From NCBI GenBank assembly GCA_016795505.1, contig JAEUHH010000010.1, forward strand, positions 1 to 64,000: a stretch of DNA of 64,000 bases. The letters are read 5' to 3'. How positions within the stretch are numbered: position 1 is the stretch's first letter; the number at the start of each line of letters is the position of its first letter. This document shows positions 24,272-42,825 of this stretch, piece after piece. The position numbers and the translations under genes are program-made. This DNA comes from Verrucomicrobiales bacterium (GTDB lineage: Bacteria > Verrucomicrobiota > Verrucomicrobiia > Verrucomicrobiales > DEV007). The notes under the pieces were generated by a model. It was not told the DNA's origin and made no database searches. It saw nothing but the letters and a program-made list of their open reading frames with translations.

Positions 24272-26443
24272 TCAGCGCGAGGTGGCGACGGAGGCCGGCT
24301 TGGTGCCGGCGGCTTCGCGGGCAAGCTGGATCTTGAGGTCTTCGAGGGCTTTCTGGTAGGCGGCGTCGGCTTCGGCGGATTTGCCTTGGGTGCGATAGAG
24401 GTCGCCGAGGAAAGTCCAGCCTTCGAAGTCGGCGTCGGTGGCGAGATCGAGGTAGCGGGCCTGGAGACGGATGGCGGAGTCGATGTCGCCGCGGAGGTGG
24501 GCGATGCTGGCTTCGATGCGGGCGATGTCGGCCTCGGCACCTTCGGCGAGGCGGTAGTTGGCGAGGGCGCCCTCGATGTCGCCGGTTTCCTCATGCAGGC
24601 TGGCGAGGTCGAGTCGCTCGGAGGGGGACCATTCCTCGGGCAGTTGGGAAACGATGCGGAGGGTGTCCTCGAAGCGGCCCAGCTCATAGCCGAGATTGAG
24701 GATGCGGGAGGCGAAGCGTTTGTCGGTGACGCGGTCGGCTTTGACGAGCAGGTCATAGGCCTCGGCGTGGCGGCCGAGTTCATACTGGAGATCGGCGAGG
24801 GCGAGCTGCAGGGGGGCGGAGCCGGGCTGTTTTTCGAGGCCTTCGCGGATGGCGGCTTCGGCGGCGGCGGTGTCGCCGAGGCTGGTCCAGGCGTCGGCGA
24901 GATCGAGGAAATGGCCGGGCTCGGGCTTTTTCTCGGCGGCGATCTTCAGACGAACGGCGCGGATGAAGTCCTCGGGCAGGTCGAGGGATTTCGCGATCAT
25001 GGAGTAGTCCTCGCGGGTCTTGCGGTCGTGGGCCTCGTCCGGGATGGCGCGGTAGTGCTCGAGGGCGGCGGGATGGTCGCCGAGGGTGGTGTGGAGGCGG
25101 GCGAGCCGCACGTGATACTCATGTCGCTGCGGGGCGATGTCCAGCGCGGTGCGGTAGGCGGTGAGGGCTTCGTCAAAGCGATCCTGGGCATCGAGGATGC
25201 CGCCGAGATCGGCCCAGACGGCGGCATCTCGGGCGTGGGTGCCGGCGAGCTCGGCGCGGTAGATTTTTTCGGCGGCGGGGAAGTCGCCGCGTTCGGCAAG
25301 CAGTCGCCCCAGAAGCAGGGTGTAGGCCTCGCGGTCGGAGACGGGCACGAGGGCGGCGAGCAGGTCGGTGAGGTCCTCCTGGCGATCGATCCAGGGATAG
25401 ACGGTGACGCAGCGGTCGAGGGCGGCGCGGTCGCCGAGGGCGGCGAGTTTGCGGTAGAGATTGAAGGCTTCGTCGGTTTGGTTGTTCCACTCCAGATGCT
25501 GGGCGAGCATGGCGCCGAAGCGGCGGAAGTCGGCGTCGGTGGGATCGGCCTCGCGGCGGCCGAGCAGGTCGCGCCAGCCGGTGCGGCCGGCGGCGGTGTT
25601 GGCGATGTAGTCCTGCAGGATGGGCAGGCTGTCGCCGAGGCGCTGGGACTGGGCGGCGACGGTGGTGATGAGTTCGACGAGTTGGTGGCGCTGGGCGGGG
25701 TCGAGGGTGGCCTTGAACTCCTCGGAGAGCAGATCGAAGGCTTTGCCGCCCTCGTTGAGTTCGCGGTGCAGGGCGATGGTGGTCATGCGCAGATCCTCGG
25801 GCAGCAGGGAAAAGGGCTGGCGATTGGATTGCAGGTAGTGCGAGATGCTCTCGAGGGCGCCGCGGGGATCGCCGGAAAATCGGCAGGCGGCGACTTTCTG
25901 AATAGTTTGCTCCAAATTCAGTGGCTGGAGAGCCTCGAGGTCTGCGTATATGGACACGGCGAGGGCGGGATCGCCGGCGTGGACGGCGCGCACGGCGAGA
26001 TGGTCCAACAGAGTGGGCAGCAGGCCGTGGGGCAGGATGCGGCGCCGGTCGAGCAGCACCTGGCGCACGCCGGCGGGATCGTCGGTGATGCGCACCAGGG
26101 CGTCGATACGCTGCACGGCGGCGTCGTCGAAGTGGTGGTCGGCGGAGTCCAGCAGCACCTCGACGAGGTTCGAGGCGGTCGGGGCGACGGCGGCGCCGCC
26201 TTCGCCGTTGACGGCCTCGCCGACGAGGGCGAGGGCGCGGTCGTGGCGGCCGTCGGCGACGAGGCGTTTCACCAGTTCGCTCTGCCGCGGGATCAGCAGT
26301 CCGGCCGAGCCCAGCGCGAGGGCGAGCAGGGCGAACAGGGCGCTGAGGGGCATGAAGCGGCTGCGTCGGGGGCGGGAGCGCCGGGCGGTGTGATGGCTGG
26401 CTTTGGTCCGGGACACGGGGGAGGCGGGGCGGTCTGTTTGCAT
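24272..26443 (-). CDS. Membrane-anchored TPR protein, candidate inner-membrane half of PelB
   Basis: The 723-aa protein has a basic N-terminus, one transmembrane segment (FMPLSALFALLALALGSAGLLI, about residues 30-51) and then a long series of TPR-like helical pairs to the end. The order of one anchor plus many TPRs is that of the N-terminal part of Pseudomonas PelB, which reaches into the periplasm and binds PelA. The start codon overlaps the stop of the pelA-like gene by one base (TGATG), which implies translational coupling. The barrel part is missing here and appears encoded at 40864-42825. The function is inferred from position and architecture. Confidence 0.65.
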   Translation of the reverse strand: MQTDRPASPVSRTKASHHTARRSRPRRSRFMPLSALFALLALALGSAGLLIPRQSELVKRLVADGRHDRALALVGEAVNGEGGAAVAPTASNLVEVLLDSADHHFDDAAVQRIDALVRITDDPAGVRQVLLDRRRILPHGLLPTLLDHLAVRAVHAGDPALAVSIYADLEALQPLNLEQTIQKVAACRFSGDPRGALESISHYLQSNRQPFSLLPEDLRMTTIALHRELNEGGKAFDLLSEEFKATLDPAQRHQLVELITTVAAQSQRLGDSLPILQDYIANTAAGRTGWRDLLGRREADPTDADFRRFGAMLAQHLEWNNQTDEAFNLYRKLAALGDRAALDRCVTVYPWIDRQEDLTDLLAALVPVSDREAYTLLLGRLLAERGDFPAAEKIYRAELAGTHARDAAVWADLGGILDAQDRFDEALTAYRTALDIAPQRHEYHVRLARLHTTLGDHPAALEHYRAIPDEAHDRKTREDYSMIAKSLDLPEDFIRAVRLKIAAEKKPEPGHFLDLADAWTSLGDTAAAEAAIREGLEKQPGSAPLQLALADLQYELGRHAEAYDLLVKADRVTDKRFASRILNLGYELGRFEDTLRIVSQLPEEWSPSERLDLASLHEETGDIEGALANYRLAEGAEADIARIEASIAHLRGDIDSAIRLQARYLDLATDADFEGWTFLGDLYRTQGKSAEADAAYQKALEDLKIQLAREAAGTKPASVATSR

Positions 26444-29295
26444 CACAGTTGTGGTTTCAGGGACAGGGACGCGGCGGCGGGAGCCTCGATGGCGAGGCGG
26501 CCGGCGGCGTCGGTGCGGTGTGTTTCGGAAAGGTTGCCCGTGGTGACGGCGACGGGGCTGTCGGGGCGGAAGCCGGCGACGACGAGGCGGGCGGGGTGGT
26601 CTTTGACCCGCAGGTCGATGCCGTCGGTGGCGAGGCGCCGCACTTCGATCTCGGCGCTGGCCGTCTCGACATGGGGTTGGGCGGCGGGCCGGTCGGCGAG
26701 CTGGATGGCGACGCGGGCGCGGCCGTCGGTGTGGATGTAGAGGGCATCCTTTTCGGCGTGGTAGCCGGTGACGCCCTCGCTGGCGGCGAGGTCGGGATAG
26801 CCCAGCCCGGTGGGCAGGCGGAAGGTGCGCAGTTGACCGTTGTTCAGGGCCGCCCAGCGCCGCTCTCCGGTGCGGACGAGCCGGGTGTGGTGGGAGTCGC
26901 GGGTGATGCGGGCGAACTGGATGGCGGTGGTGGCGTGCAGTTCCTGGGTGCGGCACCAGTCATAGATTTTCTTCAGGGCGGCGCAGGCATCGGGACGCTC
27001 GACGCTGTAGAAGTGATAGTAAACATTGACCGGCTTGAGGCGGCGGGGTCCGTCGGTCATCTCGAAGGTTTCGATCACCTGGGCGAAGCCGCCCCAGGTC
27101 GGGCCGACCCAGCCTTCCGTGTAGAGGAATTCATTTTGGTTGGCGGCGTAGATCTGGAGTTCGTCGTCCCACTGGGCGACACGCGGGGCGACGCCGAAGA
27201 GACCGGGGAAACGGCGGCACAGGATGGTGTTGCCGCCATTCATGGTCTCGATGCCCTGCTCGCGCAGCATGGCCAGCACCTGGGGCGAAGGACGGCAGTT
27301 GCCCGACCAGAGCATGAGGTCGGCGGGCTTGCCGGCGGGGGCGAGTTCGCGGCTGATGTAGTCGATGGAGCCGAGCGTCTCGCGGCGGTAGTCGATCTTC
27401 GGATAGCGGGCGGTGAGCTTGAGTTCGAGATTCAGCGAGTCGTAGAGGCCGAGGAACTCCGGGTCATCCTCCATCCAGAGGTAGGGGTGCGAGTAGGAGT
27501 GCGAGGCCGCCTGCACGTGGGGCAGGCGCAGGATGCGGCGGGCGAGCTCAGTGAGTTGGGGCGACTCGTCGGCTTTCTGCGACAGCATGTGGCCGCGGAT
27601 CTCGGATTCGACGACGGAGATGGTGATGGGCCACGGCAGGTCTTTCAGGAATCGGTCGTAGAGCACTTCGGCGCAGGTTTTGCCCGGATCGACAGTGGAG
27701 AGGGAGGAAAAGCCATCGCCATCGACGTGGGTGTAGAAAACGCGCAGGCCGTCGCGGGTGGTCGGGTCGGGTGCCGGGAAGAGGCCAGCCGGCCAGATGG
27801 CGCCGAGGAAGGCGAAGGGATCGGCGTGTTGGAGGATGGTCTCCTCGGAGGCTTCGAAAACAAGGTAGGGCGACAGCAGGGCGCCACCCCAACTGGTGAG
27901 GTAGGCCGTGTCGTAACGGTGCCGGGGGCTGTCGGCGGCGGGGGACTCGGCGACTTCGAGACCCAGCAACACGCGGGCGTCGGCGGGGGCGGCCACGGCG
28001 TCGAAGTCGCGTCGGGTCGGCGCGGCTTTGGTCTCGAAGTTCATGATCGACTCATCGAGGGCGACGATGGCGGCCGGGCCACGCGGTGCGGGCACCTCGT
28101 CGGTGGCGCGGATGCCGAGCCGGGTGAAGAGGCGGGTGCGCTCATGGTGATTGGAAAACCCATAACCGCCGAGGAAGAGCACCTTTTTCCCCTCGTCGAT
28201 GCGGCTGATGAGCCAGTCGGCGAAGTCGTGCTCCAGGCGGTAGGGGAACTCCAGCTCCTCGTCGAGGATCACGCCGGCGTATTCGGCGCCCAGCTCTTTG
28301 GTGGGGAGTCCCTTCGACACGTCGTGGAAATCGACCTCGTAGCCCATCCACTCCAGCGGCATCTGGAGGATCGCGTGGGTGGTGGTGTCGGCCGGCCAGA
28401 TCCGGTGGCTTTCGGCCTCCTTGGGATCGTAGCCGAACAGGACGAGCAGACGACGGGCGACCTGACCGCCGCCGATCACGGTGCCGTCCAGTTCCGGTGT
28501 GGTGAGAAACGGCACCGCGCCGAACTCGCGGAGCGCGCGATTGGCGGCGGCGACCTCGGCAGGTGCGGCGGCGCGGGGCAGGTAGTCCACCGCATAGACC
28601 GGATGACCGGCGGCGATGGCTTTCTGGATTTCGGCCGTGAGGGTGCGCGTGACATTGGCTTCGACCGGCCGGCACTCGCGGGTGGCGGGGTCGTAGGTGT
28701 GGCGGACCGACTCGACGAGCACGCCATCGACCGTCTCGCGGCCCAGGGTGGCGAGCAGATCGAAGCCGCGATTCAGCACCAGTTGCTTGTCGGGAAAGGC
28801 GGTGCGCAGTTCCTTGATTAGCGCAATCAAACCGTCGCGGGACGCCGCGGCGCGGTCGGGGGCCTGGGACTCGATGAGCCGCAGGCTGTCGACGGTGTCG
28901 AGCAGGAAGCCGTCGAAGCCCCGTTCCGCCGCCGGCCGGGCGAGTTGCTCGATGACGAAGGCGCGCCAGCGGGGATCGGCCGGATCGGCGAGATCGGCGG
29001 CCCAGAGAGGATTTTTCATCACCGGCCGGATGCCCGTGGCCAGCGCCGCCTCGCGGTAGGGAGCATCGGCGGCGATCTCGACCACGCTGAGGTAGGCGAG
29101 GTAGCGGTTGCCGAGCCGCTGACCGGCGGCCAGGTCGGCTTCGGCGGTCGGGTGGATGATGTTCAGCCCGTAGGCGAGGAGGTGGTCCGGATTCGGCCGA
29201 GCCGAGTAGTCCACGTAGAGGGAGTCGGCGGCAACGGCGGTGCCGGCGAGTCCGAGCAGGGCGGAGAGTCCGAGGGCGAGTGTCTGGCGGATCAT
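26443..29295 (-). CDS. pelA: PelA-like polysaccharide hydrolase and deacetylase
   Basis: The protein (950 aa, about the length of Pseudomonas PelA) has a signal peptide (LALGLSALLGLAGTAVA). An N-terminal GH114-type domain follows (about 25-275; candidate acids in GFDGFLLDTVDS at 127-138 and VLVES at 192-196), then a flavodoxin-like middle domain (about 280-450). The carbohydrate deacetylase domain has HVDGDGF at 523-529 and SHSYSHP at 598-604, the Asp and His metal-site motifs of PelA and CE4 relatives. Family knowledge: PelA trims and partly de-N-acetylates the polymer in the periplasm. It sits 40 bp after an epimerase gene and overlaps the TPR gene downstream. Confidence 0.88.
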   Translation of the reverse strand: MIRQTLALGLSALLGLAGTAVAADSLYVDYSARPNPDHLLAYGLNIIHPTAEADLAAGQRLGNRYLAYLSVVEIAADAPYREAALATGIRPVMKNPLWAADLADPADPRWRAFVIEQLARPAAERGFDGFLLDTVDSLRLIESQAPDRAAASRDGLIALIKELRTAFPDKQLVLNRGFDLLATLGRETVDGVLVESVRHTYDPATRECRPVEANVTRTLTAEIQKAIAAGHPVYAVDYLPRAAAPAEVAAANRALREFGAVPFLTTPELDGTVIGGGQVARRLLVLFGYDPKEAESHRIWPADTTTHAILQMPLEWMGYEVDFHDVSKGLPTKELGAEYAGVILDEELEFPYRLEHDFADWLISRIDEGKKVLFLGGYGFSNHHERTRLFTRLGIRATDEVPAPRGPAAIVALDESIMNFETKAAPTRRDFDAVAAPADARVLLGLEVAESPAADSPRHRYDTAYLTSWGGALLSPYLVFEASEETILQHADPFAFLGAIWPAGLFPAPDPTTRDGLRVFYTHVDGDGFSSLSTVDPGKTCAEVLYDRFLKDLPWPITISVVESEIRGHMLSQKADESPQLTELARRILRLPHVQAASHSYSHPYLWMEDDPEFLGLYDSLNLELKLTARYPKIDYRRETLGSIDYISRELAPAGKPADLMLWSGNCRPSPQVLAMLREQGIETMNGGNTILCRRFPGLFGVAPRVAQWDDELQIYAANQNEFLYTEGWVGPTWGGFAQVIETFEMTDGPRRLKPVNVYYHFYSVERPDACAALKKIYDWCRTQELHATTAIQFARITRDSHHTRLVRTGERRWAALNNGQLRTFRLPTGLGYPDLAASEGVTGYHAEKDALYIHTDGRARVAIQLADRPAAQPHVETASAEIEVRRLATDGIDLRVKDHPARLVVAGFRPDSPVAVTTGNLSETHRTDAAGRLAIEAPAAASLSLKPQL

Positions 29296-29335
29296 GGGAA
29301 CGGGAGAGGCCAGGGTGGCTGTCGGGAGATGAGGA

Positions 29336-30304
29336 TCAGGCGACCGCGAGGGCCGGCAGCGGCCGGGTTTGCTCGATCAGGGCGCGCAAGCTGGCCTCCA
29401 GCGGAGCGGTGGCCTGGAATCCGATGGCCTTGGCGGCGCGGTCCGGGCTGCCCAGAGAGTGGCGAATCTCACCGTCGCGGGCTTCGGCGATCCGGTGGGG
29501 CGGGGCGTCGGGATAGACCGAGCGGAAGATGTCCAAGATGCTCAGCAGCGTGCGCGGGCGGCCCGTGCAGACATTGCAGATGGTCGGGGCCAGGTCGGGC
29601 TGGGTTGCGGCCAGGGCATTGGCCCGGGCGAGGTCCTCGACAGCGATGAAGTCACGGGTCTGGCGGCCGTCTCCGTAGACGGTGACCGGCTCACCGGCGG
29701 CGAAGCGGTCGGAGAAGATCGAAATGACGCCGGAGTAGGGCGACTTCGGGTCCTGCCGGGGGCCGAAGACATTGAAATACCGCAGGCAGATCGCCTCCAG
29801 GCCGAAGGAGGCCGCGTAGCCCTGCAGCACCTCCTCGGAGGCGCGTTTGGCCATGCCGTAAAGGCTGATCGGGCGGGGCAGGATCGACTCGACGAGCGGC
29901 AGCTCGGGATGGTCGCCGTAAATGGCAGCCGACGAGGCAAAGACCACGCGGCGCACGCCGTGTTTCCGCGCGGCTTCGGCGACGAGATGGGTGGCATGGA
30001 GATTGAGCCGGTAATTCAGGTCCGGCTCCTGCTGCGCCCGCACCACGCTCACAAGTCCGGCGAGGTGGATGATGGCGTCCGGCTTCTGGCTCTCCACCGC
30101 CCGGTCCAGCGCGCCGGGGGCGGTGATGTCGAGCCGGATGAAGCGAAACCGCGGGTCCGCCGAGGCGCCGCGCAGATTGGCGAGGTGGCCGGTGCTGAGG
30201 TCATCGAGGGCGATGACCTGGCAGCCCATGGCCAGCAGGCGATCGACGGTGTGGCTGCCGATGAAGCCGGCGGCGCCGGTAACGAGGATGCGGGTGTGTT
30301 TCAT
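29336..30304 (-). CDS. UDP-glucose/UDP-N-acetylglucosamine 4-epimerase-like enzyme
   Basis: The 322-aa protein has the extended short-chain dehydrogenase pattern: GAAGFIGSH at residues 10-18, ASSAAIYG (catalytic Ser region) and YGMAK (YxxxK), followed by LRYFNVFGPRQDP. Such enzymes interconvert UDP-hexoses at C4. In Pseudomonas protegens a similar UDP-HexNAc epimerase, PelX, is encoded with the pel genes and supplies UDP-GalNAc for Pel. The position directly before pelA on the same strand suggests the same role here. Whether it prefers acetylated sugars cannot be read from the sequence. The upstream spacer is AT-rich and divergent. Confidence 0.85.
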   Translation of the reverse strand: MKHTRILVTGAAGFIGSHTVDRLLAMGCQVIALDDLSTGHLANLRGASADPRFRFIRLDITAPGALDRAVESQKPDAIIHLAGLVSVVRAQQEPDLNYRLNLHATHLVAEAARKHGVRRVVFASSAAIYGDHPELPLVESILPRPISLYGMAKRASEEVLQGYAASFGLEAICLRYFNVFGPRQDPKSPYSGVISIFSDRFAAGEPVTVYGDGRQTRDFIAVEDLARANALAATQPDLAPTICNVCTGRPRTLLSILDIFRSVYPDAPPHRIAEARDGEIRHSLGSPDRAAKAIGFQATAPLEASLRALIEQTRPLPALAVA

Positions 30305-30484
30305 GGATCGGGAACGGAGAATTTTTGGAAACCTAAAAATTCAGCTAAAACCAATTAATTATGGTTTTTATAACTTCCCGACATTTATCGCAATCTTGCG
30401 TATCGCTCAAGCAAATTTTTTAAAAAATGATTCTATTTGATAATTTTTATGGTAGTTTTGGTTCAAATGAGAGAGGTTTTGACC
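30305..30484. other. AT-rich divergent spacer in the Pel-type locus
   Basis: A strikingly AT-rich stretch between the epimerase gene and the beta-helix gene, likely holding promoters for both directions. It contains an inverted repeat AAAACCA-N8-TGGTTTT (about 30347-30368). No exact sigma-70 pair could be fixed. Similar AT-rich spacers precede the other two transcription starts of the locus (34493-34578 and 42840-42960). Confidence 0.5.
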
Positions 30485-31942
30485 ATGCGACTCCGTTTCA
30501 CCCATCTGACTCCGCGGTTCCGGTTCTGGAACAAGGCTGCCGTGGCCCTGGCTATAGGGCTCGCGCCCGTCATGCCGACCGTTTGGGCCAAAGGCCGCAC
30601 CCTCTATGTGTCACCAGCCGGGAACGACGCCGCGCCGGGCAGCGAGAAATTCCCCTGGCGCACCATTCAGAAGGCCTGCGACGAGATGCAGCCCGGCGAC
30701 ACGACCATCGTCCGCGCCGGGATCTATAACGAGCAGCTCTTCGTCGAGGTCGAAGGCAACGCCACGGACGGTCCGGTGACCCTCCAGGCCGAGGGCAAGG
30801 CGGTCATCACCGCTCAGGGGCTCGACGAGGACAATGTGATCTACATCGAGAACAAGAGTCACATCCGCATCATCGGCTTTGAGATTCGCGACCTGCATAC
30901 CGAGGACGGCTCGGGCATCCGATTCGAGGGCGCGGGGAGCCATCTGGAATTCCGCGACAACCACATCCATTCCATTCGCGGCAAGAATGCGATGGGCATC
31001 ACCATCTACGGCACCGATGCGGACAATCCTGTGAGCCGTGTGACCATCGACGGCAACGAGATCCACGACTGCGACGCTGCTCCGAGCGAGGCCCTCACGC
31101 TGAATGGGAACGTGACCGACTTCGAAGTCACCAACAACCACGTCCACGACATCGTCGGTGTGGGCATCGACTTCATCGGCGGCGAGGATGGCATCGTCGA
31201 TGACCGCACCAAGGCCGCGCGCAACGGCGTCTGCCGGGGGAATCGCGTTGAGCGGGTGCGCGCGAACTATGGCGGCGGCTACGGGCCGGGCATCTACGTC
31301 GACGGCGGTCGCGACATCGTCGTGGAGGGCAATCAGGTGAGCGAATGCGACCTCGGCATCGAGGTGGGCGCGGAAAACCCTGGGGTCGTGGTGTCGGGCG
31401 TCGTGGTGACGGGCAATGTCATCGCCGGCAACGACAAAGCCGGGCTCGTCGTCGGCGGCTACGAGAAAAAGCGGGGCCGGGTGCGCGAGTGCCGCTTTGA
31501 GAACAACCTGATCCGCGACAACACCAGCCACGCCAAGGCAGAGGCGGAGATCTGGATCCAGTGGGCCGAGGCCAACGACTTCCGCAACAATCTGATCGTC
31601 GGCCGCGAGGGCAGCGAAAAACCACTGCTCTACAGCGAAAATCCCAACCAGGAGAATGCCTTCGACTTCAATCTCTGGCACCTGCCCGGCGGCGAGCCGA
31701 CTTTCGTGTGGTCGGGCCGGGAGTATGCCGGTTTTGAGGCCTTTCGCGAGGGAACAGGGTTGGATCGGAGAGGCAACCGGGTTGATCCGAAACTCGCCGC
31801 CGACGGCATCCACCTCGGTCCCGGTTCGCCGGCCATCGATGCGGGTGATCCGGAAACGAAGATCGCGCCGGAGGCCAAGGATATCGATGGCGAGCCGCGG
31901 GTGAAGGGCGGCCGCATCGATGTGGGGCCGGACGAAGGCTGA
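30485..31942 (+). CDS. Secreted right-handed parallel beta-helix protein (PL9/DUF1565-like)
   Basis: From the ATG at 30485, preceded by GAGAGAGG as ribosome site, the protein has 485 aa and a signal peptide (AAVALAIGLAPVMPTVWA). The start of the mature part, LYVSPAGNDAAPGSEKFPW, RTIQKACDEMQPGDTTIVRAG, is the classical beginning of PL9/DUF1565-type beta-helix proteins, and coils such as FRNNLIVG recur every 20-25 residues. The end, GPGSPAIDAGDP, is also typical. Such folds include polysaccharide lyases and the alginate epimerase AlgG, so it may cut or modify the exported polymer. A segment near the C-terminus (31751-31788) closely resembles an intergenic repeat. Confidence 0.75.
   Translation: MRLRFTHLTPRFRFWNKAAVALAIGLAPVMPTVWAKGRTLYVSPAGNDAAPGSEKFPWRTIQKACDEMQPGDTTIVRAGIYNEQLFVEVEGNATDGPVTLQAEGKAVITAQGLDEDNVIYIENKSHIRIIGFEIRDLHTEDGSGIRFEGAGSHLEFRDNHIHSIRGKNAMGITIYGTDADNPVSRVTIDGNEIHDCDAAPSEALTLNGNVTDFEVTNNHVHDIVGVGIDFIGGEDGIVDDRTKAARNGVCRGNRVERVRANYGGGYGPGIYVDGGRDIVVEGNQVSECDLGIEVGAENPGVVVSGVVVTGNVIAGNDKAGLVVGGYEKKRGRVRECRFENNLIRDNTSHAKAEAEIWIQWAEANDFRNNLIVGREGSEKPLLYSENPNQENAFDFNLWHLPGGEPTFVWSGREYAGFEAFREGTGLDRRGNRVDPKLAADGIHLGPGSPAIDAGDPETKIAPEAKDIDGEPRVKGGRIDVGPDEG
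31751..31788 (-). repeat. 22-bp-type repeat inside the beta-helix gene
   Basis: AACAGGGTTGGATCGGAGAG and GCAACCGGGTTGATC match the reverse complement of the repeat at 22227-22262 at about 32 of 36 positions with one gap; the block GATCGGAGAGGCAAC is identical. It is read in frame as part of the protein (GTGLDRRGNRVDP). This protein position normally carries a similar GLD...DP sequence in the family, so convergence cannot be excluded. Confidence 0.6.
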
Positions 31943-31997
31943 GCCGCGGCGGGGATTCGCAAGTGCGGGGGCATCGTGTATCGTGCCCGCCGTTTCC

Positions 31998-33002
31998 ATG
32001 CTGAAGTCCCCCCGAACAGCCCTCGCCGCGTGCGTGTCCCTGGTGGCGGTCGCGCTGGGCCTGCCCATGCTGCTGGGCCGTGGCCCGGTGCGGGCGGATC
32101 GCTTTGACGAATCGCTGATCGACGATCTGAACCGCGAAAAGCCGGAGATCCTCCTGATCGGTGACTCGATGCTCTACACCCGGCTCCACCTGGACGGGTT
32201 GCGGAAACTCGCCGCGGACCGGCGCCTCTCGGAGTATTCAGTTGGCGGATCGGCCTCGGCGACATGGTATCTCTATTTCAAAAACGTGGCGATGGCGGCG
32301 AAACGGCCTCCGCAGATGGTGGTCTTCTTCTTCCGCGACGACGTCTGGTCGCAGCCCCACCTGCGCACCGCGGGTGCGCGGCGCGATCATCTGCTGGAAC
32401 TGTCGCCGGACCTGACGACCGACCTGGGCGTGGTGCCGGGATTCGCGGACGATTCGCTGACGCTGGCGGGGCTGCCGCGCCGCCTCTATCCGGTGGTCGA
32501 TTTTCGCAACTACCTGCGCCAGCGGCTGGTCCTGCTCATTCAGGACGCGGTGAGTGGCACCGGATCGAAGCATCCGCTGGTGAAGGAGCGTCGGGAACGC
32601 TTTGACTTGGGCAACCTGCGGTCCGACCTGCCGGCGGAGTTGCCCGAAGCCAACGAGCACACCGAGGGGGATCTTCAGTTCGATCCGGACGGCACCTTCC
32701 TTCCCGAGATCATGAGCCTCGCCGCAGACAAAGGAGTGCGGGTGGTGCTTTACCGCGTGAAACGCCGGCCCGATGACGCTGGCCAGCGCGAAGAGTCACC
32801 CGAACTGGCCGCCTACGTGGCCTCCCTGCGATCCTGGCTGGAGACCCGTGGCGGCGTGCTGGTGGATGAGTCGGGCGACTCGTCGCTGGGCCTGAATCTC
32901 TACCTCGATGGCGATCACCTGCGCGAGTCGGCCCGTCCGGCTTGGACGGTGGCCTTTTGGCGGCGGCTCGAGCCGGTGGTGAAGGGAGGGCCTCCGCGAT
33001 GA
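31998..33002 (+). CDS. SGNH-type acyl-transfer protein paired with MBOAT (AlgJ/AlgX-like role)
   Basis: The 334-aa protein has an N-terminal hydrophobic segment (TALAACVSLVAVALGLPMLL) as signal or anchor, the block I motif IGDSMLYTR with nucleophile Ser near residue 50, and a block V DGDH motif near the C-terminus. This is the Ser-Asp-His layout of SGNH esterases/transferases. Next to an MBOAT gene, with a 4-bp overlap, it fits the known pairs AlgI-AlgJ/AlgX, PatA-PatB and DltB-DltD, in which the SGNH protein moves acyl groups to the polymer in the periplasm. Overall identity to AlgJ or AlgX is not evident by eye. Confidence 0.7.
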   Translation: MLKSPRTALAACVSLVAVALGLPMLLGRGPVRADRFDESLIDDLNREKPEILLIGDSMLYTRLHLDGLRKLAADRRLSEYSVGGSASATWYLYFKNVAMAAKRPPQMVVFFFRDDVWSQPHLRTAGARRDHLLELSPDLTTDLGVVPGFADDSLTLAGLPRRLYPVVDFRNYLRQRLVLLIQDAVSGTGSKHPLVKERRERFDLGNLRSDLPAELPEANEHTEGDLQFDPDGTFLPEIMSLAADKGVRVVLYRVKRRPDDAGQREESPELAAYVASLRSWLETRGGVLVDESGDSSLGLNLYLDGDHLRESARPAWTVAFWRRLEPVVKGGPPR

Positions 33003-34429: not shown

Positions 34430-34578
34430 GGGCGGCAGGAGGGCTGCATCGATCGAACCGAACCCGCCGGGACCGGGGGCGTGGGAAGGTAAAGGGAATC
34501 GAAAATTTGAGAAAACTTTAAAGTTTGCGTCTTTTTAATTTGAATTTATTAAAATAATCAGCGAAAGTTTCGCCGCTT

Positions 34579-35199
34579 ATGAAAAAATTCAGCATCACCA
34601 CCCTTGCGGTCACTTTGGCGACGCTGTGCGGAGCCAAAGCTGATTATCTCGTCCTGAGTTCTTCTTTTGATCAGAAGGAGCAGGAAGCCCGTCTGGAATC
34701 CTTCCAGAAAAATCTGAGTCCCTACGGAGAACCCCAGATGCTGCTGGCATCGAATGGGGCCTACACCGTGGCCATGCACTGTCAGACCACCGAAGAAGCC
34801 CGCGGGCTGCGCGCCGTGCTGACCGGCCGCAATCTGGCGCCCAAGGACGCCTACATTGTGGCCGACAACAAGCTGGCGTCGATGGACAAGAAGGCGGTTC
34901 CCCAAGGGGTTCCCTTCATTCAAGTGGCGGCCAGCCGCAGCCGGGAGGAGGCGATGGAGCACGCCCGTGACCTGTTCTACAACGAGCATTGGAATGGTGA
35001 AGTCCAAGTGTGGGCATCGGACGCCGACAAGCAGGGCAAGCGCTGGTATCGCGTTGTGATCCCCGGCAAGAGCGGCGATCAGGCGGTCGCGCTGGAGAAG
35101 TACCTGAAGACGGAGAACGTGATCGACAAGGCGGCCTTCATCGTCGCGGAGTCGGCGCTCGGATTGAGAATCTTCTCATCCCACGAAGAGGGCGTCTGA
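34579..35199 (+). CDS. Exported protein with two SPOR-like repeats
   Basis: The 206-aa protein has a signal peptide (ITTLAVTLATLCGAKA; the Cys context does not match a lipobox well). The mature part shows two similar modules of about 80 residues, each with beta-strand, helix with E/A/R-rich face, strand, strand: one begins DYLVLSSSFDQKEQEARLES, the other PFIQVAASRSREEAMEHARD. This is the SPOR-like pattern known from peptidoglycan-binding proteins. It lies between the MBOAT gene and the convergent pelG, with its own AT-rich upstream region, and might be a periplasmic or cell-wall component of the secretion apparatus. That role is a guess from position. Confidence 0.6.
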   Translation: MKKFSITTLAVTLATLCGAKADYLVLSSSFDQKEQEARLESFQKNLSPYGEPQMLLASNGAYTVAMHCQTTEEARGLRAVLTGRNLAPKDAYIVADNKLASMDKKAVPQGVPFIQVAASRSREEAMEHARDLFYNEHWNGEVQVWASDADKQGKRWYRVVIPGKSGDQAVALEKYLKTENVIDKAAFIVAESALGLRIFSSHEEGV

Positions 35200-35230
35200 T
35201 CCATCGCCACACCCGGCAGAGCGGGTTTTG

Positions 35231-35266: not shown

Positions 35267-35280
35267 TGCGTCGGGGTTTC

Positions 35281-35322
35281 CGATGCAACCCTGTTGCTTC
35301 GCCGATGATACCCTGTTTGATC
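35281..35322. repeat. 22-bp repeat, two units
   Basis: GATGCAACCCTGTTGCTTCGCC is followed by GATGATACCCTGTTTGATCG, between the convergent SPOR-like and pelG genes. The second unit is most like the one at 11703-11722. Confidence 0.8.
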
Positions 35323-35350
35323 GTCAGGCCGGTGCTGATCCGGACCCTGA

Positions 35351-36730
35351 CTACGCCGCGCCGGGCAGGAACACGTGGTATTCGAATCTCGCCAGCCGGG
35401 CATTGACCCGCCAGGCGGTGATGAACATGGCGGCACCGGCGGCGACGACGAAGCCGAAGCCATACCAGGCCTCATTGGCGAGCACGGTGGCGAGACTGAG
35501 CCCTCCGTTGGCCACCGCGAAGACGATGCAGGCGAGCAGGGCGCCTCGCCGATCGTCGAGGTAGAACAGGATGGTCATCAGGGCGAGAAACAGCATGAGA
35601 AGGAAGGCGCCGATGAGGGTGACCCGGAAGATGCCCTCCTGGATGGCGCCGATGCCCAGCCAGGAGCCGATGTGGCCGGCGTAAATGAGCAGGGCCAGGG
35701 TGACGACGGCCTGGGTGGAAAGTAGGTGGAGGAAGCCGGAGCGCAGCGAGTCGATCATGCGGTCCTTGGCGTCGAGGATGTCGGTGAAGCGGCCTCCGTC
35801 ATTGGTGGCGTGGAAAAATTGATGAAATCGATCGGCGAAATCGGTCTCGAGGCGGAGGAAAAACACGGTCAAGCCGGGAACGATGGACAGGAGGCTCAGG
35901 TAGATGGCCAGATCGTACTCCGGAGAGGCGTGGAGCACGCCGCTGATGACGCGGTTTTCAGCGGAGAGGTGCCAGAAGAGGAATTTGTCGATCCAGATGC
36001 CCAGATTGTAGAGCAGGCCGCACCAGATCAGACTGGGATAGCGGCGCAGATGTCCGAGGAAGGACCAATCCGCCGCCGGGGCCTCGGGACGGGACAGTTC
36101 GCGGCGCAGGCAGCCAAGCAGGACGGCGAAAAGGATGAGGTGGCCGGCGGCAAAACCGGCCAGTCCGCCCGCGACGCCCCAGCGGCCGGTGGCATACCAG
36201 GCCGCGAAGCCGCTGGCGAGGTAGCCGACGAGGAATCCGGCCACGATGGCCCGGTAGCGCAGCAGGACGCTGAGGTAATTGGCGGTGACGAAAATCAGGC
36301 AGACATAGACGAACAGCGAGATGGCTGCGGCCTTGAGCGGCAGGGACTCGGGAGTGAGCAGGCCGAACACCACGGTGCCGGCGATGAGGCTGAGGATGGC
36401 GGTAAGAACGAGGGCGCCGATGGCATTCGGAAGGATGGAGCCGGGCCGCCGGGCGGAGATCTCGTCGGCGGCGTGGCGATTGAGCACAAACTGGAGTCCG
36501 CCGGTGAGGATCAGGGCGAGGGCGTAACTGTGGGTGATGATGGTGGAAAACAGCACCCGCTCCGGCTCGGAGAGGACGGGCTGGAGGGTGAGATTCAGCA
36601 GGATGATGGAAAGGATCGAGATGATCCACGGCCCCGTGCTGATGACGCCGGCGTAGAGGTAGGCGCGGGCGGTCCCGGTGAGGGAGCGTGGCACGAGGAG
36701 TTTGCGCAGTTCGAATCCGATGCCGGCCAT
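35351..36730 (-). CDS. pelG: PelG-like polysaccharide flippase
   Basis: The 459-aa membrane protein begins MAGIGFELRKLL, the characteristic PelG N-terminus, followed by about twelve hydrophobic segments (for example WIISILSIILLNL and LVLTAILSLIAGTVVFG). The length equals that of Pseudomonas PelG within a few residues. PelG is a member of the PST/Wzx-type transporters and is thought to move the growing polymer across the inner membrane with PelD and PelE. It is last in the left-going arm pelB-pelD-pelE-pelF-pelG; the spacer to pelF is 37 bp. Confidence 0.92.
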   Translation of the reverse strand: MAGIGFELRKLLVPRSLTGTARAYLYAGVISTGPWIISILSIILLNLTLQPVLSEPERVLFSTIITHSYALALILTGGLQFVLNRHAADEISARRPGSILPNAIGALVLTAILSLIAGTVVFGLLTPESLPLKAAAISLFVYVCLIFVTANYLSVLLRYRAIVAGFLVGYLASGFAAWYATGRWGVAGGLAGFAAGHLILFAVLLGCLRRELSRPEAPAADWSFLGHLRRYPSLIWCGLLYNLGIWIDKFLFWHLSAENRVISGVLHASPEYDLAIYLSLLSIVPGLTVFFLRLETDFADRFHQFFHATNDGGRFTDILDAKDRMIDSLRSGFLHLLSTQAVVTLALLIYAGHIGSWLGIGAIQEGIFRVTLIGAFLLMLFLALMTILFYLDDRRGALLACIVFAVANGGLSLATVLANEAWYGFGFVVAAGAAMFITAWRVNARLARFEYHVFLPGAA

Positions 36731-36767
36731 GGTCAGAGCGGGGAGGGTGGTAAGTGGGGGAGGGGAG

Positions 36768-38354
36768 TCAGGCGGTCGCGGCGGCGGCGAGGCCGACATA
36801 GAGTTCGCGGTAATGGTCGATGACACCCGATTCCGTGTAGGACTGTTGCGTGCGGGCGAGCCCGGCGGCCCCGCAGCGGTCCTGGAGTTCGCGGTCGGAC
36901 AACAGGCGGACCAACGCCTGGGCCAGGGCGGGGGGATTGCCGACTGGAACGACGGCGCCGGCCGGTCCGAGGGCAGGTTGTTCGTCATCCCGTCCATGTA
37001 TGAGTTCCGCGCAGGAGCCGACATCGGTGCTGACGACCGGCATGCCGGCGCCGAAGGCCTCCAGCACGGCGAAGGGAAGGCCTTCGCTGACACTGCTGAG
37101 CACCATGATGTCGAACTCCGGCAGCGCCGCCTCGGGCGACGCCGGTCCGGTGAAAAGGACGTGTTCCGACAGGCCCAGCTCGGTGGTCAGGGTCTCGCAT
37201 TCGGCAAAATAGGCGGCATCCTCGTCCGTGGGGCCGACAATGAGGAACCGGGCATCGGGCACCACGTCGATGGTGAGGCGGGCGGCGCGGAGGAGGGTCT
37301 TCACGTCCTTGATGGCAACGACGCGGCCGAAAAAGCCCACATGGCGGCGGCCCGGCTGGGCGAGGCGCTTCTCCCGCCGGCTTTCGCGAATGGCCTCGAA
37401 GCGCGAGAGGTCCACTCCGTTGGGTATGACCTGCTGGCGTTCCGCGGGGGCGCCGAACTCGGTCTGGATGTGGGCGTTTCGTTGGAACAGGGAGACGATG
37501 CGGGCCGCCGAGTGGTAGGTGAGGCGGCCGATCTCGACGAAGAAATCGATCCAAAGCCGTCGCAGGGCGGGAATGCCCTCGGTGCCGGGCACCCTGAGCG
37601 CGTCCGGACCGGCCCATTCGGAGCGGAGGAGATCGGAAATGCGTTCGCGCACGTAGATGCCGTGCTCGCTGAGCAGAAAGCGGGAGCGGGGGCGTCTCCG
37701 GGCGGCCAGGGCGCCCAGCAATCCCGCGTAGCCGGTGGAGACGCTGTGATAGACGGCGGCCTCGGGGAGGTTTTCCTCGATCCTGAGCAATTTCCAGACC
37801 GGTTCGATCAGGAAACGGACATTCCAGAAGAAGTCGATGAACGGAAGTTGTTCAAAGTGCCGCGCGTAGCAGTCGAGGAGGAGATCCCAGGTGTCGGGAT
37901 GCTGCCAAAAGCGTTCGAAGGTGACGCCCTGAGCCAGTCTGGCGAGGGCGAGCAGGGCTTCGGCGAGGCGGGAGTCGATCGACTCTGGCGCGGCGGGCTC
38001 GTCGGAGAGGAGCAGGGCCGCCAGGCTGCTGTGGACCGCCTGCCACTCGGTGCGTCCGACCCGGATTGACGGCGAGATGGCGGCAGATTCGTCAGGGCTC
38101 GGGTCGAACAGGAAGATTTCGTGCAGAGAGGCGAGATTGGGTGGCAGGTCGTATTTCCGCTCGCCAGCCAGCGATTTCTCCGCGCCGATGTAGACGACCG
38201 AAAAGCGAAGTTCGGGCAGGGCGGTGAGGATCTGGTGAACCCAGGTCGAAACGCCACCCCGGACGTAGGGCCAGGTGCCCTCGAGCAGCAGGCAGACATC
38301 GGCAGTGCCGGTCTGGTCAGCGGCTGGGACGGAGGATCTGGAGGTGAGGGACAT
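36768..38354 (-). CDS. pelF: PelF-like GT4 glycosyltransferase
   Basis: The 528-aa protein has the PelF N-terminal signature CLLLEGTWPYVRGGVSTWVH (residues 21-40), HGIYVRER near 231 and the GT4 EX7E motif, Glu424 to Glu432 (EGLPFAVLE). PelF is the cytosolic polymerising glycosyltransferase of the Pel system, using a UDP-sugar donor. The length is close to that of Pseudomonas PelF. The start at 38354 was chosen as the first Met ahead of the conserved block; an open frame runs further upstream over the end of the pelE gene. It sits 28 bp after pelE. Confidence 0.93.
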   Translation of the reverse strand: MSLTSRSSVPAADQTGTADVCLLLEGTWPYVRGGVSTWVHQILTALPELRFSVVYIGAEKSLAGERKYDLPPNLASLHEIFLFDPSPDESAAISPSIRVGRTEWQAVHSSLAALLLSDEPAAPESIDSRLAEALLALARLAQGVTFERFWQHPDTWDLLLDCYARHFEQLPFIDFFWNVRFLIEPVWKLLRIEENLPEAAVYHSVSTGYAGLLGALAARRRPRSRFLLSEHGIYVRERISDLLRSEWAGPDALRVPGTEGIPALRRLWIDFFVEIGRLTYHSAARIVSLFQRNAHIQTEFGAPAERQQVIPNGVDLSRFEAIRESRREKRLAQPGRRHVGFFGRVVAIKDVKTLLRAARLTIDVVPDARFLIVGPTDEDAAYFAECETLTTELGLSEHVLFTGPASPEAALPEFDIMVLSSVSEGLPFAVLEAFGAGMPVVSTDVGSCAELIHGRDDEQPALGPAGAVVPVGNPPALAQALVRLLSDRELQDRCGAAGLARTQQSYTESGVIDHYRELYVGLAAAATA

Positions 38355-38382
38355 GCGGGTTGAGGTGGAAAGAGCAAGCCGG

Positions 38383-39405
38383 TCAGGCCGGAGTCCCGCC
38401 CGGTTGGACGAGCCAGAATTGGCGGTGGGCGGCACCCAGCCCGGATGCGGGGGAGCCTTGCTGGCTGATGCGTTCGATGGCCTCGGCGGTCCGCTTCCAA
38501 TTGCCCAGCGCGGAGAAGTAGGCCAGCTCGAGGCGATTGGCGAGAGGGCTCGCGCCGGGCAGGGCGCACAGGCGGCCGTAGAGATCGGGAATGCCATCCA
38601 GTTCACCCAGTCGGATCAGGCAATGCGCCCGGCCCCAGAGACAGGAGGCGTCGGCAGGATCGATCTCCAGCGCCTCGGCAAACCGCGAAGCGGCTTCGGC
38701 GATGAAACGGGGGGCCTGATCGGGGTCAATTTCGGCCCCGTGAAGCAGGGCGGTGGCGAGACGTTCCAGTCGGGTGACGCGGTCGGCGGGGGTGATCTCT
38801 GCCGTGGCGGCGGCCCTGCGCAGGGACTCCAGTTGTTTCTCGCGCCGCTCAAAAGCCGCCGACAGGGCGGATTGGGCATAGAGATGGGTGCGGGCATCCG
38901 GTTGATCGGTCAGGGCCTTCAGCAGGAGATGGGCGCGCCGGTCGCCGAGCTGCCGGATGCGGGGAACGGCGAGGCGTTGAATGGGACGGTGGCCATGCCG
39001 GATGGCGGAAGCGAGTGGTTCCGCGCCTTCCGAGGTGGACTGGGATCGCTGGCTGGCGCGGTAAAAGGGATTGCCAAACTGAAGGCCTTGGAATCGGCCG
39101 CCGCGGGTCCGGGCAGGTCTCTGGGGCATCGTCAGCCAGCCGGCGACGAGGCAGCCCAGCACCGGCGTGAGCAGGCACAGGGAGGCGGCGAGCCCCGCCA
39201 GCGTGGCAGCACCACTGCGGCGGCGGGATGGCAGCCATTTGGCCACCGCCACGAAGGCGACCGCGACCACCGCCAGGTGGAGAGCCAGCGCCGCGAGGTG
39301 GGGTGCGATGGGGAGACCGGGGACTCGTCCCAAGCCAGCTGCCACGGCGGCCGCATCGACCGCCGCGAGCAGGGCGAAGAAGATGATCGGCATCGCGTGG
39401 CCCAT
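38383..39405 (-). CDS. pelE: PelE-like inner-membrane TPR protein
   Basis: The 340-aa protein has three hydrophobic segments in the first 95 residues (FFALLAAVDAAAVAAGLG; LALHLAVVAVAFVAVA; LAASLCLLTPVLGCLVAGWL) and a helical Ala/Glu-rich C-terminal domain with TPR-like pairs (for example RFAEALEIDPADASCLWGRA). PelE of Pseudomonas has the same size (about 329 aa) and layout and works with PelD and PelG in the inner membrane. Sequence identity is low, so the call rests on layout and place between pelD and pelF; a start at 39393 is equally possible. Confidence 0.78.
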   Translation of the reverse strand: MGHAMPIIFFALLAAVDAAAVAAGLGRVPGLPIAPHLAALALHLAVVAVAFVAVAKWLPSRRRSGAATLAGLAASLCLLTPVLGCLVAGWLTMPQRPARTRGGRFQGLQFGNPFYRASQRSQSTSEGAEPLASAIRHGHRPIQRLAVPRIRQLGDRRAHLLLKALTDQPDARTHLYAQSALSAAFERREKQLESLRRAAATAEITPADRVTRLERLATALLHGAEIDPDQAPRFIAEAASRFAEALEIDPADASCLWGRAHCLIRLGELDGIPDLYGRLCALPGASPLANRLELAYFSALGNWKRTAEAIERISQQGSPASGLGAAHRQFWLVQPGGTPA

Positions 39406-39414
39406 GGGGAAAAG

Positions 39415-40827
39415 TCAGGAAGCCGCCGCCACGGCGAGTTCGGGAGCGATCCGCGCGACGGGTAGCGGGGTGTGAGGCGCGCCGACGGGCAGGACCTCCA
39501 TGCGAACGGCCCGAGCGCTCGATCCGATGCGGGTCAGAATCTGACCGGCGATCTGCTCGGCCGCGGCGGTGGAGGGAGCCGAGATCAGGAGGCCGATGGC
39601 GTAGGGCGACGACCGGCCGTCTCCAACGGCGCCCAGAGGATCGGTGGGGGCGGCGATCGTTTTGAGACGATCCACGAACTCGGCGAGCATCGCCTGGGGC
39701 GCCGCAGTATCGGCCAGAAACAGAATCAGGCGCGAGGGCAGCCCCAGTCGCATCTCCACCTCGCGGGCTTCTTCCAAGCGGGCCAGGAAGACCTCAGGAG
39801 CGAGGATGCGGCCCGATGCGGAACTGTCTTCGACGCGGTTGAGCGGGGCGGCCTCCATCCGGGCCATGCACCAGGCGAACAAGGCCTCGATCCGGCCCAG
39901 GGTATCCCAACCGATCCGGGAAAACTCCATGCGGCCGATGAGCAGCACGGCGCGCGCCCCGCCGTCCGGACCCACTGACCAGCGCCAGGGGATGGCGGCG
40001 AGGTGGCGCTGGTCCGAGCCCTCGGGATTGAAGGGGCCGCCGTCGGGACCTTGCCAGGTCGCGATGCGGCCTTCGGCGAGAGCGGCGGAGGCGATCAGTG
40101 CCTCGGTGGACGGGAGCGCGGTCGGAAACGTCGACTCACCCACGGCGGTCGATGCCACCCGGGCGATCTGGGAGTGCCGGCCGGTGTCGTCGCGGTAGAT
40201 GGCTGCGGAAATGACTCCATACTCGCGACTGAGCAGTTTCAGCAGACCCTCCTCAGGCCGGTCGCGCTCGTCGATGAAGAGCCGCTTCAGCTCTGCGGAG
40301 AGTCCGAGCGACTCAGCGCCGTGAAGGAGCAGGGACTCGACCAGCCTGGCCTCGTTGGCCCGCATCAGGGCGCAGTCTTCCACCAGTCGGCGGTTGCGCT
40401 CGGCCAGAGCCAGCCCCTGAAGCCGAAGCCTTTCCGCAAGACCGCCGCAAAGATGGCGGATCAGGGTGCCGACGGCGGTGGCGATGAGCAGGGACAGAAA
40501 AAAGTAGGGCTCCTGTCGCAAAAACATCACCGGTGGCTGGGTCTCGGCGGCCCATTTGAGGCCAAGGACGCCACCCGCTGCCAGCAGGGCACCGACGAGA
40601 CCGACGCCGGCTCCGTAGCGTCCTCCCAGGAACAGAGGCAGGAGGAGCCAGGGGCTCGGATTCTGGCGCAGCCAGCCCGGGTCGGCGCGGTCGAGGAACC
40701 AGTTGCAGCCCAGCAGCACGGCGGTGAGCAGGATGGCATCCACCGGTGCCGTGCGCCACAGGGGCGGCTTTTTCCAGAGCGACTCGTCTTCGGCTGCCGT
40801 GGCGAACGTGTCGGCGTGATCGGTCAT
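39415..40827 (-). CDS. pelD: PelD-like inner-membrane receptor with GAF and degenerate GGDEF domain
   Basis: The 470-aa protein has four transmembrane segments in residues about 30-125, a helical linker, a GAF-like domain (about 165-325) and a C-terminal GGDEF-like fold (about 341-450) without GGDEF, where the active-site position reads VGDGRSSPYAIGLL. PelD of Pseudomonas (about 455 aa) has the same plan and binds cyclic di-GMP through an inhibitory-site RxxD in the GGDEF domain. Here the aligned segment reads APTD (393-396), so the arginine seems lost; an RVED occurs earlier at 331-334. Binding of the nucleotide is therefore uncertain. It ends 9 bp before pelE. Confidence 0.87.
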   Translation of the reverse strand: MTDHADTFATAAEDESLWKKPPLWRTAPVDAILLTAVLLGCNWFLDRADPGWLRQNPSPWLLLPLFLGGRYGAGVGLVGALLAAGGVLGLKWAAETQPPVMFLRQEPYFFLSLLIATAVGTLIRHLCGGLAERLRLQGLALAERNRRLVEDCALMRANEARLVESLLLHGAESLGLSAELKRLFIDERDRPEEGLLKLLSREYGVISAAIYRDDTGRHSQIARVASTAVGESTFPTALPSTEALIASAALAEGRIATWQGPDGGPFNPEGSDQRHLAAIPWRWSVGPDGGARAVLLIGRMEFSRIGWDTLGRIEALFAWCMARMEAAPLNRVEDSSASGRILAPEVFLARLEEAREVEMRLGLPSRLILFLADTAAPQAMLAEFVDRLKTIAAPTDPLGAVGDGRSSPYAIGLLISAPSTAAAEQIAGQILTRIGSSARAVRMEVLPVGAPHTPLPVARIAPELAVAAAS

Positions 40828-40863
40828 GGTCCGCGGGGCGAAGGACAGGACGGTGGGAGAAAA

Positions 40864-42825
40864 TCAGTAAAAGGTGCGAAGACCGATGTTGCCGACGAAA
40901 ACTTCGGAGTCATCGTTGCTGGCTCCGGTACCGTCGGAGTAGTAACCACCCTCCACGACGAGGTCGATCATGTCGGTCAGGGCGAACTCGACGCCGCCGG
41001 TGAAGTTGTAGTCCCATTCTTCGTCGGAGAAATCGAAGTAGAGTCCGCTGCTCAGGTAATAAAACAGGCTGGGGTTGACCCTTGACTCGAAAGTGACCTG
41101 AAGTCCGTGGGGGTGGTAGCGGGGCTCGATCAGTTCCGAGCCCAGCAGGCGCCCGTCGGCCGGCTCACCGGCGTAACCGAGGCGGCTCACCTCGCGATCG
41201 GACAGACGCGCCGCATCGAAGCGCTCGTAATCGGCCCGGTAGGCGAGATAGACCGATGAAGTGTTGGTGGCGTTCTCCCAGATCGGACGGTTCACTTCCA
41301 GATAGGCCGCCCAACCGTCACCGAGGTCGGCGCCGTCGGCTTCGACCCGCCGGGCCGAGGCCCCGGCAAGCAGTTCGAATCGGGCAGGCAGCGGTACCTG
41401 CACATTGGCGGCCACCCGGTCTTCGATCCCATTCAGGGCGATCATTTGCAGCGAATCCATCGCCGGAATGTTGAAATCGACCGAGATATCGTAACCAAGG
41501 ACGCCGAGGTGGGTTTGCTCGCGGCCATAGGTGACTCCCCAGGTCGCATCCTCATGGGATCCGCCACCGGCGCGGGCTTCGATGTAGCTCAAATGGTCAT
41601 CCAGATATTTTCTTACCACGGCCACGGCGCCGAGGAAATCACCGGAGGACTGGCGCAGGGAGCGCTCGCTGGAGAGGGAAATGTCGTAATACCAGGCATT
41701 CAAGCCGGCGTGCAAACCGGGAGCTACCGGGGCGAGGGCGTGGGTCCGCCAGAAGAGGCCTTCGCCTTCCGCCTCGCTGATGATCTCCATATTGGCCTGG
41801 ACCGTGGGGCCGCGCAGGCGGGAGACATCCTTGATGGCGGCGGTGGCTTCCTGCCTCACGCGCTCGGTAACGGTCTGGTCGGCGGCCAGTTCCTGGTAGG
41901 CTGTGACAGCCTCGTCGAGGCGACCGGTGGCCCGGAGGCATTCGGCGAGCGCATCCTGTGCCGGGTAGGGCTTGCCGGCGTAATGCCGGGCTTTGAGCGA
42001 CTCCAGCATGGGGAGCGCCTCCAGATAGTGGTAGTTGGGCACCAACGCCTGCGCGTAGAGCAGTTGGACATCGACATCTTCGGGATACTTTTGGCGCATG
42101 GCCTCAGCCTTTTCGAGGGCGGCTTCGGGCTGCTTCTTTTCGATCAGATCGTAGGCCACTTTCAGGCCTTCGAGTTTCTCGATCTCCGTCAGGCCGGCCT
42201 GGGCGAGCTTCTTTTGCTCGGCGGAGGCGCCCTTCTGGTCGAGCGCGCGCCGGTAGGCGGTGCGGGCGGCTTCGTAGTTGCCGGTCGACCCGTAGGCATC
42301 GCCCAAGTCGATCTCAAACGGGAAAGCTTTTCCGGAAAACGCTCCATTACGCTGCTTTTCCATCAAGGCGATGGCGGCATCGTATTTCTGGGCCGTCATC
42401 AGGCCGTCGATCCGATTCTCCAGCTCTTCGTGGGGATTCGGCGGTTCGCTCTCGCCGTCCAGCGGATCGTTGGCCGCGGAGTCGATCGTGATGGGCGGTG
42501 CGCCAGCCGGATTGCGGCGGTTCAATTCGTCCGTCAGTGCCTTGGACATGGCTCCGTTTCCGAGGCGGGCATAGACGCCGAGCAGATTTCTCAAATAATC
42601 GGTCGAAAGCTCGGGAAGGCGCTTCAGGATGGCTTCATCGCTGGGCACGCCAGAAGAGGCGGCAGGGGCGGCGGCGGTGGCATCGGTCGATTGAGCCGGC
42701 AAAGTAACCTGCCAGAATACGCCGGAACTGGCGATAATGAGAGGAACGATGCGGAACCGGCAGGCGAAAGTCCTCCCGGGGACGGTCGCCGACCAGGGCC
42801 GCCAGATGGCGGGAGTCAGGTCCAT
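40864..42825 (-). CDS. TPR and outer-membrane beta-barrel protein, PelB C-terminal-like
   Basis: The 653-aa protein has a signal-like hydrophobic stretch (IVPLIIASSGVFW), TPR-like helices up to about residue 340, then a C-terminal half of alternating amphipathic strands that ends in an aromatic residue (GNIGLRTFY), as outer-membrane porins do. The order TPR then barrel is that of the C-terminal part of Pseudomonas PelB, through which the polymer leaves the cell. It is the first gene of the pel arm in the minus direction, with 36 bp to pelD. The long TPR scaffold of PelB seems to be the separate gene at 24272-26443. Confidence 0.75.
   Translation of the reverse strand: MDLTPAIWRPWSATVPGRTFACRFRIVPLIIASSGVFWQVTLPAQSTDATAAAPAASSGVPSDEAILKRLPELSTDYLRNLLGVYARLGNGAMSKALTDELNRRNPAGAPPITIDSAANDPLDGESEPPNPHEELENRIDGLMTAQKYDAAIALMEKQRNGAFSGKAFPFEIDLGDAYGSTGNYEAARTAYRRALDQKGASAEQKKLAQAGLTEIEKLEGLKVAYDLIEKKQPEAALEKAEAMRQKYPEDVDVQLLYAQALVPNYHYLEALPMLESLKARHYAGKPYPAQDALAECLRATGRLDEAVTAYQELAADQTVTERVRQEATAAIKDVSRLRGPTVQANMEIISEAEGEGLFWRTHALAPVAPGLHAGLNAWYYDISLSSERSLRQSSGDFLGAVAVVRKYLDDHLSYIEARAGGGSHEDATWGVTYGREQTHLGVLGYDISVDFNIPAMDSLQMIALNGIEDRVAANVQVPLPARFELLAGASARRVEADGADLGDGWAAYLEVNRPIWENATNTSSVYLAYRADYERFDAARLSDREVSRLGYAGEPADGRLLGSELIEPRYHPHGLQVTFESRVNPSLFYYLSSGLYFDFSDEEWDYNFTGGVEFALTDMIDLVVEGGYYSDGTGASNDDSEVFVGNIGLRTFY

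Follow-up and report, generated by a model that had tools for sequence, protein, structure and literature searches.

What does the locus at positions 24272-42825 of a Verrucomicrobiales contig make, and which of its twelve genes belong to the system that makes it? The locus lies in a 64,000-nucleotide stretch of DNA (hereafter the window, the whole stretch analysed). A sequence-only reading had proposed a Pel-type exopolysaccharide locus in a PVC (Planctomycetes–Verrucomicrobia–Chlamydiae)-type bacterium, with a modification module embedded in it. Profile and structure searches confirm the first proposal, as the matches to PelA, PelD, PelF and PelG are far beyond chance. We consider it very probable that this is a genuine Pel exopolysaccharide locus, complete save for PelC, operating by the mechanism set out below. 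It is a PelC-less Pel variant, not a full canonical member of the group.

PelF, PelG, PelA, PelD, a PelX-like epimerase and the barrel of PelB are each backed by profile, sequence or fold matches. PelG matches PF16933 over its full length (422 bits) and is single copy in the 6.5 Mb genome, and PelF scores 496 bits against NF038011 (cutoff 100) and also matches DUF3492. The motifs quoted in the sequence-only reading, HVDGDGF and SHSYSHP in PelA and MAGIGFELRKLL in PelG, are present. For the epimerase, the best solved matches (E 1.4e-62) are 6wjb and 6wj9, which the search output names by superfamily alone and which we take to be PelX of Pseudomonas protegens. PelX makes the UDP-N-acetylgalactosamine (UDP-GalNAc) for Pel (PMC9135694). 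The epimerase gene adjoins pelA in the window and also in the class-level outgroups G361 and G464. PelA itself aligns over 830 residues with the solved PelA structure 9cgy (E 6.5e-113). The alignment retains HxDxD, SHxxSH and, further on, a Glu and a His, together with the Asp and Glu of the hydrolase. Compared with a published list of catalytic residues (PMC12022489), the counterparts of D160, E218, H526, D528, D530, H600, H604, E723 and H761 appear to be retained, with D160, E218 and E723 positioned by eye. In another genome, G066, PelA occurs as two genes, a hydrolase and a deacetylase (L040:5232-6116 and L040:11107-13374), and the hydrolase gene occupies the position of PelC in the outgroups.

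The window PelD has no Pfam match above threshold when searched as a single sequence; a profile built from 12 relatives matches solved PelD (4euv) at E 5.5e-12, and three transmembrane (TM) helices are predicted. The PelE candidate lies between pelD and pelF, has predicted TM helices and a weak TPR_19 match, and shares 44-48% identity with its counterparts in genomes of the same genus. We call it PelE-like from its position, topology and conservation.

PelB is encoded as two proteins, a barrel half and a tetratricopeptide repeat (TPR) half, one at each end of the locus. The sequence-only reading had listed no PelB; the two end genes are its halves. An AlphaFold2 model of the barrel half (three sequences, mean predicted local distance difference test score, pLDDT, 69) has TPR helices up to residue 338, followed by 16 strands. 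The PDB structure that matches it best is 9h80 chain M, from the PelBC transporter (Foldseek E 1.2e-14; VIA-align Z 25.1, root-mean-square deviation 4.4, 368 residues aligned). The next-ranked folds are 4y25, titled polysaccharide outer membrane secretin (Z 24.1), and BcsC (Z about 21), and because these scores are close to that of PelBC the ranking alone is not decisive. We therefore assign the modelled barrel half to PelB by its position and the rest of the locus alongside the fold match. The TPR half matches TPR families, has one TM helix at residues 33-51, and its start overlaps the end of pelA; in G024, G032 and G066 it directly precedes the barrel half.

The layout is the one originally described, with two minus-strand arms, a right arm from 42825 to 35351 and a left arm from 30304 to 24272, around four plus-strand genes:

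40864-42825, minus strand: PelB C-terminal half, TPR and 16-strand outer-membrane barrel, 653 amino acids (AlphaFold2 model, fold match)
39415-40827, minus strand: PelD, cyclic di-GMP (c-di-GMP) receptor-like inner-membrane protein with GAF and degenerate GGDEF domains (profile match, three predicted TM helices)
38383-39405, minus strand: PelE-like protein, three N-terminal TM helices and a weak TPR region (position, topology, conservation)
36768-38354, minus strand: PelF, GT4 glycosyltransferase (NF038011, DUF3492)
35351-36730, minus strand: PelG, inner-membrane exporter (PF16933)
34579-35199, plus strand: secreted SPOR-domain protein, accessory (PF05036, E 7e-5)
32999-34429, plus strand: MBOAT O-acyltransferase, DltB/AlgI type (PF03062, 91.6 bits)
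31998-33002, plus strand: SGNH-type membrane-anchored partner of the MBOAT (conserved residues in relatives, adjacency)
30485-31942, plus strand: secreted right-handed beta-helix protein, predicted carbohydrate-active enzyme (Beta_helix/NosD, fold matches)
29336-30304, minus strand: PelX-like UDP-GlcNAc (N-acetylglucosamine)/GalNAc C4-epimerase (6wjb/6wj9 matches)
26443-29295, minus strand: PelA, hydrolase and deacetylase (9cgy match, aligned catalytic residues)
24272-26443, minus strand: PelB N-terminal half, one TM helix and TPR repeats (TPR families, TM prediction)

With X for the epimerase and B1 and B2 for the TPR and barrel halves of PelB, the order in the two arms, B2-D-E-F-G and X-A-B1, is a permutation of the X-A-B1-B2-C-D-E-F-G order of class-level relatives. 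In G361 and G464 the genes run X-A-B1-B2-C-D-F-G on a single strand, with PelE undetectable by tblastn. The A-B1 block comes after G, not first, in the window, in its genus siblings (G090, G139 and G142) and in the neighbouring genus (G043), and within the genus X is included in the block; some of the loci compared are cut by contig ends. The operon is in effect permuted, and the beta-helix gene sits at the junction in the opposite orientation.

No PelC can be recognised. A profile of eight PelC proteins gave no credible match in the 15 pel-positive genomes of the order (G000 and 14 others), and the same profile detects PelC in five of five pel-positive class outgroups, always immediately before pelD. 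In the window, 36 nucleotides (nt) separate the barrel half and pelD. A weak PelC-like match in G096, covering profile positions 16-87 (E 1e-4) within a 745-residue frame, was rejected as not PelC. Among 80 PelG loci from public genomes, 56 are PelC-positive by a similar profile, and the negative ones either come from this order or are, for the most part, short or truncated at a contig end. In the PelG tree the genomes of the order group as a single clade (support 100/99), so one loss of PelC suffices. PelC, which forms a ring of twelve lipoproteins, has been called a hallmark of Gram-negative Pel systems and essential, although its necessity is puzzling (PMC12141448). A clade that has the other Pel parts but no recognisable PelC, beside sister lineages that keep it, offers a direct comparison for why the ring is needed.

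The mechanism that we propose follows the known system for Pel, a sugar polymer of biofilms. The PelX-like epimerase would supply UDP-GalNAc, which PelF would polymerise at the inner membrane together with PelD, the PelE-like protein and PelG. The chain would be exported by PelG, and periplasmic PelA would partially deacetylate and trim it. The two-polypeptide PelB, with its TPR half encoded beside PelA and its barrel half carrying TPRs of its own, would then pass the chain through the outer membrane, the barrel half presumably working without a PelC ring. By analogy with Pseudomonas, we infer that the polymer is alpha-1,4-GalNAc/galactosamine. A partly de-N-acetylated, O-acetylated amino-sugar polymer had been suggested; enzymes for a partly de-N-acetylated GalNAc-type polymer are indeed encoded, and the O-acetylation has behind it the position of genes in this one genome.

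The beta-helix gene is the only one of the four plus-strand genes that is conserved as part of the locus. It holds the same position in each of the three genus siblings and in G043, adjoins the epimerase and PelA genes in G119, and lies 4 kb from pelG in G108; on these grounds we count it as belonging to the locus in this clade. The protein matches Beta_helix/NosD profiles, and its model, a right-handed beta-helix, resembles RbmB (Z 33.3) and AlgE4 and AlgE6 (Z 34.6-34.7), as well as AlgG, PL6 lyases, GH136 and GH120. Most likely it is a secreted enzyme that acts on the polymer, in turnover or release, like RbmB, which is reported to be a lyase of the matrix polysaccharide in Vibrio cholerae (PMC11637428). 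Should Pel, which has no uronic acid, be the substrate, hydrolysis would be likelier than lyase action. The neighbourhoods of unlinked beta-helix genes in G164 and G145 gave no functional hint. The gene is thus a candidate for a Pel-acting enzyme of a type that, to our knowledge, has not previously been tied to Pel.

Several observations weigh against this account. The beta-helix model has a mean pLDDT of 68 and was built from two sequences, and its fold alone does not fix the reaction because the matches score equally or almost equally. A lipoprotein that is unrelated to PelC, or has diverged strongly from it, could stand in for it. The Arg of the putative RxxD I-site of PelD is replaced in the window (APTD), G139 (SAGD) and G142 (APGD), so regulation may differ in this genus; the motif is kept as RPVD, RPTD or RTTD in G119, G024, G032 and G062. 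The equivalence of this column to solved PelD was judged by eye, as the hidden Markov model alignment runs three residues out of register at that point. A PelD that has lost its c-di-GMP domain is known from streptococci (PMC7112168).

The SGNH/MBOAT pair reported among the plus-strand genes is present. The MBOAT matches solved DltB structures (E 3e-25) and has an intact His in a WHGA motif. The SGNH protein has GDSM and DGDH motifs and one TM helix, and its gene overlaps that of the MBOAT by 4 nt and follows the beta-helix gene in the same orientation at a distance of 56 nt. The window SGNH protein has no Pfam match of its own; S57 and D306-H307 are common to 11 relatives, a few of which match DUF1574 and GDSL. 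An MBOAT with its catalytic His and an adjacent SGNH protein is the composition of an MBOAT-SGNH module. That such a module is a conserved part of the locus is not supported, and the co-occurrence check proposed in the sequence-only reading turned out negative: three of three genus siblings and G043 have neither the pair nor the SPOR gene at this place, none of the 80 public PelG loci (many of them cut by contig ends) holds them, and the pair is also missing from seven class-level loci. Between the stop codons of the beta-helix gene and pelG there are about 15 to 60 nt in the siblings, 245 nt in G043 and 3.4 kb in the window.

Because the outgroup G043 and all three siblings are without the pair, the simplest reading is that a cassette landed here, and we lean towards the pair and the SPOR gene being unrelated passengers between the beta-helix gene and pelG that would acylate another envelope polymer or lipid. 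They occupy this place in one genome only, and an unlinked cassette exists elsewhere: across the order, SGNH homologues (27-38% identity) mostly lie beside an MBOAT (48-58% identity) and not near pel, with sulfatases, an AMP-binding enzyme or housekeeping genes as neighbours. The SPOR gene is preceded by an AT-rich stretch in a GC-rich region (34430-34578), probably its own promoter region, and its one homologue among 59 family genomes is in G090, on another contig without pel genes. Inverted repeats are absent from the edges of the insert and no direct repeat there is convincing, a promoter scan found nothing, and the composition of the insert is not clearly foreign, as the GC content at third codon positions of the SGNH and MBOAT genes falls inside the range spanned by the pel genes and that of the SPOR gene at its low end. 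Against passengers, the place is suggestive, inside an exopolysaccharide locus and directly behind a conserved accessory gene of the same orientation, and the genome encodes two more MBOATs, which could act on other targets. The position also speaks for a true Pel module, in which the MBOAT would carry acyl groups across the membrane and the SGNH protein would transfer them in the periplasm to give an N-deacetylated and O-acylated Pel. The DltB match and the intact His motif agree with this, and alginate and acetylated-cellulose systems employ such pairs (PMC7112194). However, the loci of relatives lack the pair, elsewhere in the order the same pair has sulfatases and unrelated genes as neighbours, and the orientation that it shares with the beta-helix gene may be fortuitous. 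No publication combining pelF, pelG and MBOAT was found in the literature searched. The pair may O-acylate Pel or something else, and we rate Pel as the less likely target; an O-acetylated Pel is a possible conjecture, drawn from position in one genome.

Slightly more doubtful still is the composite in which an exporter without a PelC ring, a two-polypeptide PelB, a dedicated beta-helix matrix enzyme in the Pel loci of the clade and O-acylation added in one genome together yield a doubly modified Pel. Least probable is that the locus makes a Pel-like but different amino-sugar polymer, on which the beta-helix protein acts during export as an epimerase or lyase in the manner of AlgG. In its favour, the model matches AlgE4, AlgE6 and AlgG as well as lyases and hydrolases. 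Against it, PelA, PelF and the PelX-like epimerase all indicate GalNAc. Known beta-helix C5-epimerases and lyases require uronic acids, and since no gene of the locus supplies these, an alginate-type epimerase is only a weak rival.

Outside the locus, an SDR oxidoreductase and an O-methyltransferase (43040-44964) flank the pel genes in the window and also in G139 and G142. Further along are a 581-residue protein combining DUF116 and polyprenyl synthetase domains (46512-48257) and a planctomycete-type cytochrome protein with PSD2, PSD3, PSD4 and PSCyt3 domains (49326-53186), which fits a PVC origin. G096 has a second, very divergent pel locus (L025:1-12017) in addition to its L024 locus.

Compared with pelABCDEFG of Pseudomonas aeruginosa, the locus shares the functions of PelA, PelD, PelF, PelG and PelB and probably that of PelE, as well as the catalytic residues of PelA and the barrel fold of PelB. 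It differs in having PelB as two proteins at opposite ends, no recognisable PelC, a PelX-like epimerase within the locus, plus-strand genes separating the arms and no Arg in the PelD I-site. The statement that known Pel loci are simple operons was too strong, as pelB fission, rearrangements and divergent accessory genes have been published (PMC7112194, PMC7112168). A split pelB is shared with rearranged operons of other bacteria (PMC7112194), and an epimerase and a divergent polysaccharide-acting gene have parallels in Bacillus cereus, where pelDEADAFG is accompanied by divergent galE and glycosidase genes (PMC7112168). In contrast to those loci, the accessory here is a beta-helix protein between two arms, and the organism is a Gram-negative without PelC. 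Alginate algI/algJ/algX and acetylated-cellulose wssH/wssI likewise combine an MBOAT with an SGNH-type partner, whereas the pair here is not conserved with the locus, its SGNH motifs run Ser first and Asp-His last, and the solved relatives of its MBOAT are DltB. RbmB of V. cholerae is also a secreted right-handed beta-helix protein tied to a matrix polysaccharide, although at 13% identity to the protein here. PelA homologues in Verrucomicrobiota have been published (PMC12022489), so that Pel in this phylum, like pelB fission and divergent accessory genes, is already on record; within the literature searched, a permuted Pel locus that has no recognisable PelC and carries a beta-helix gene is new.

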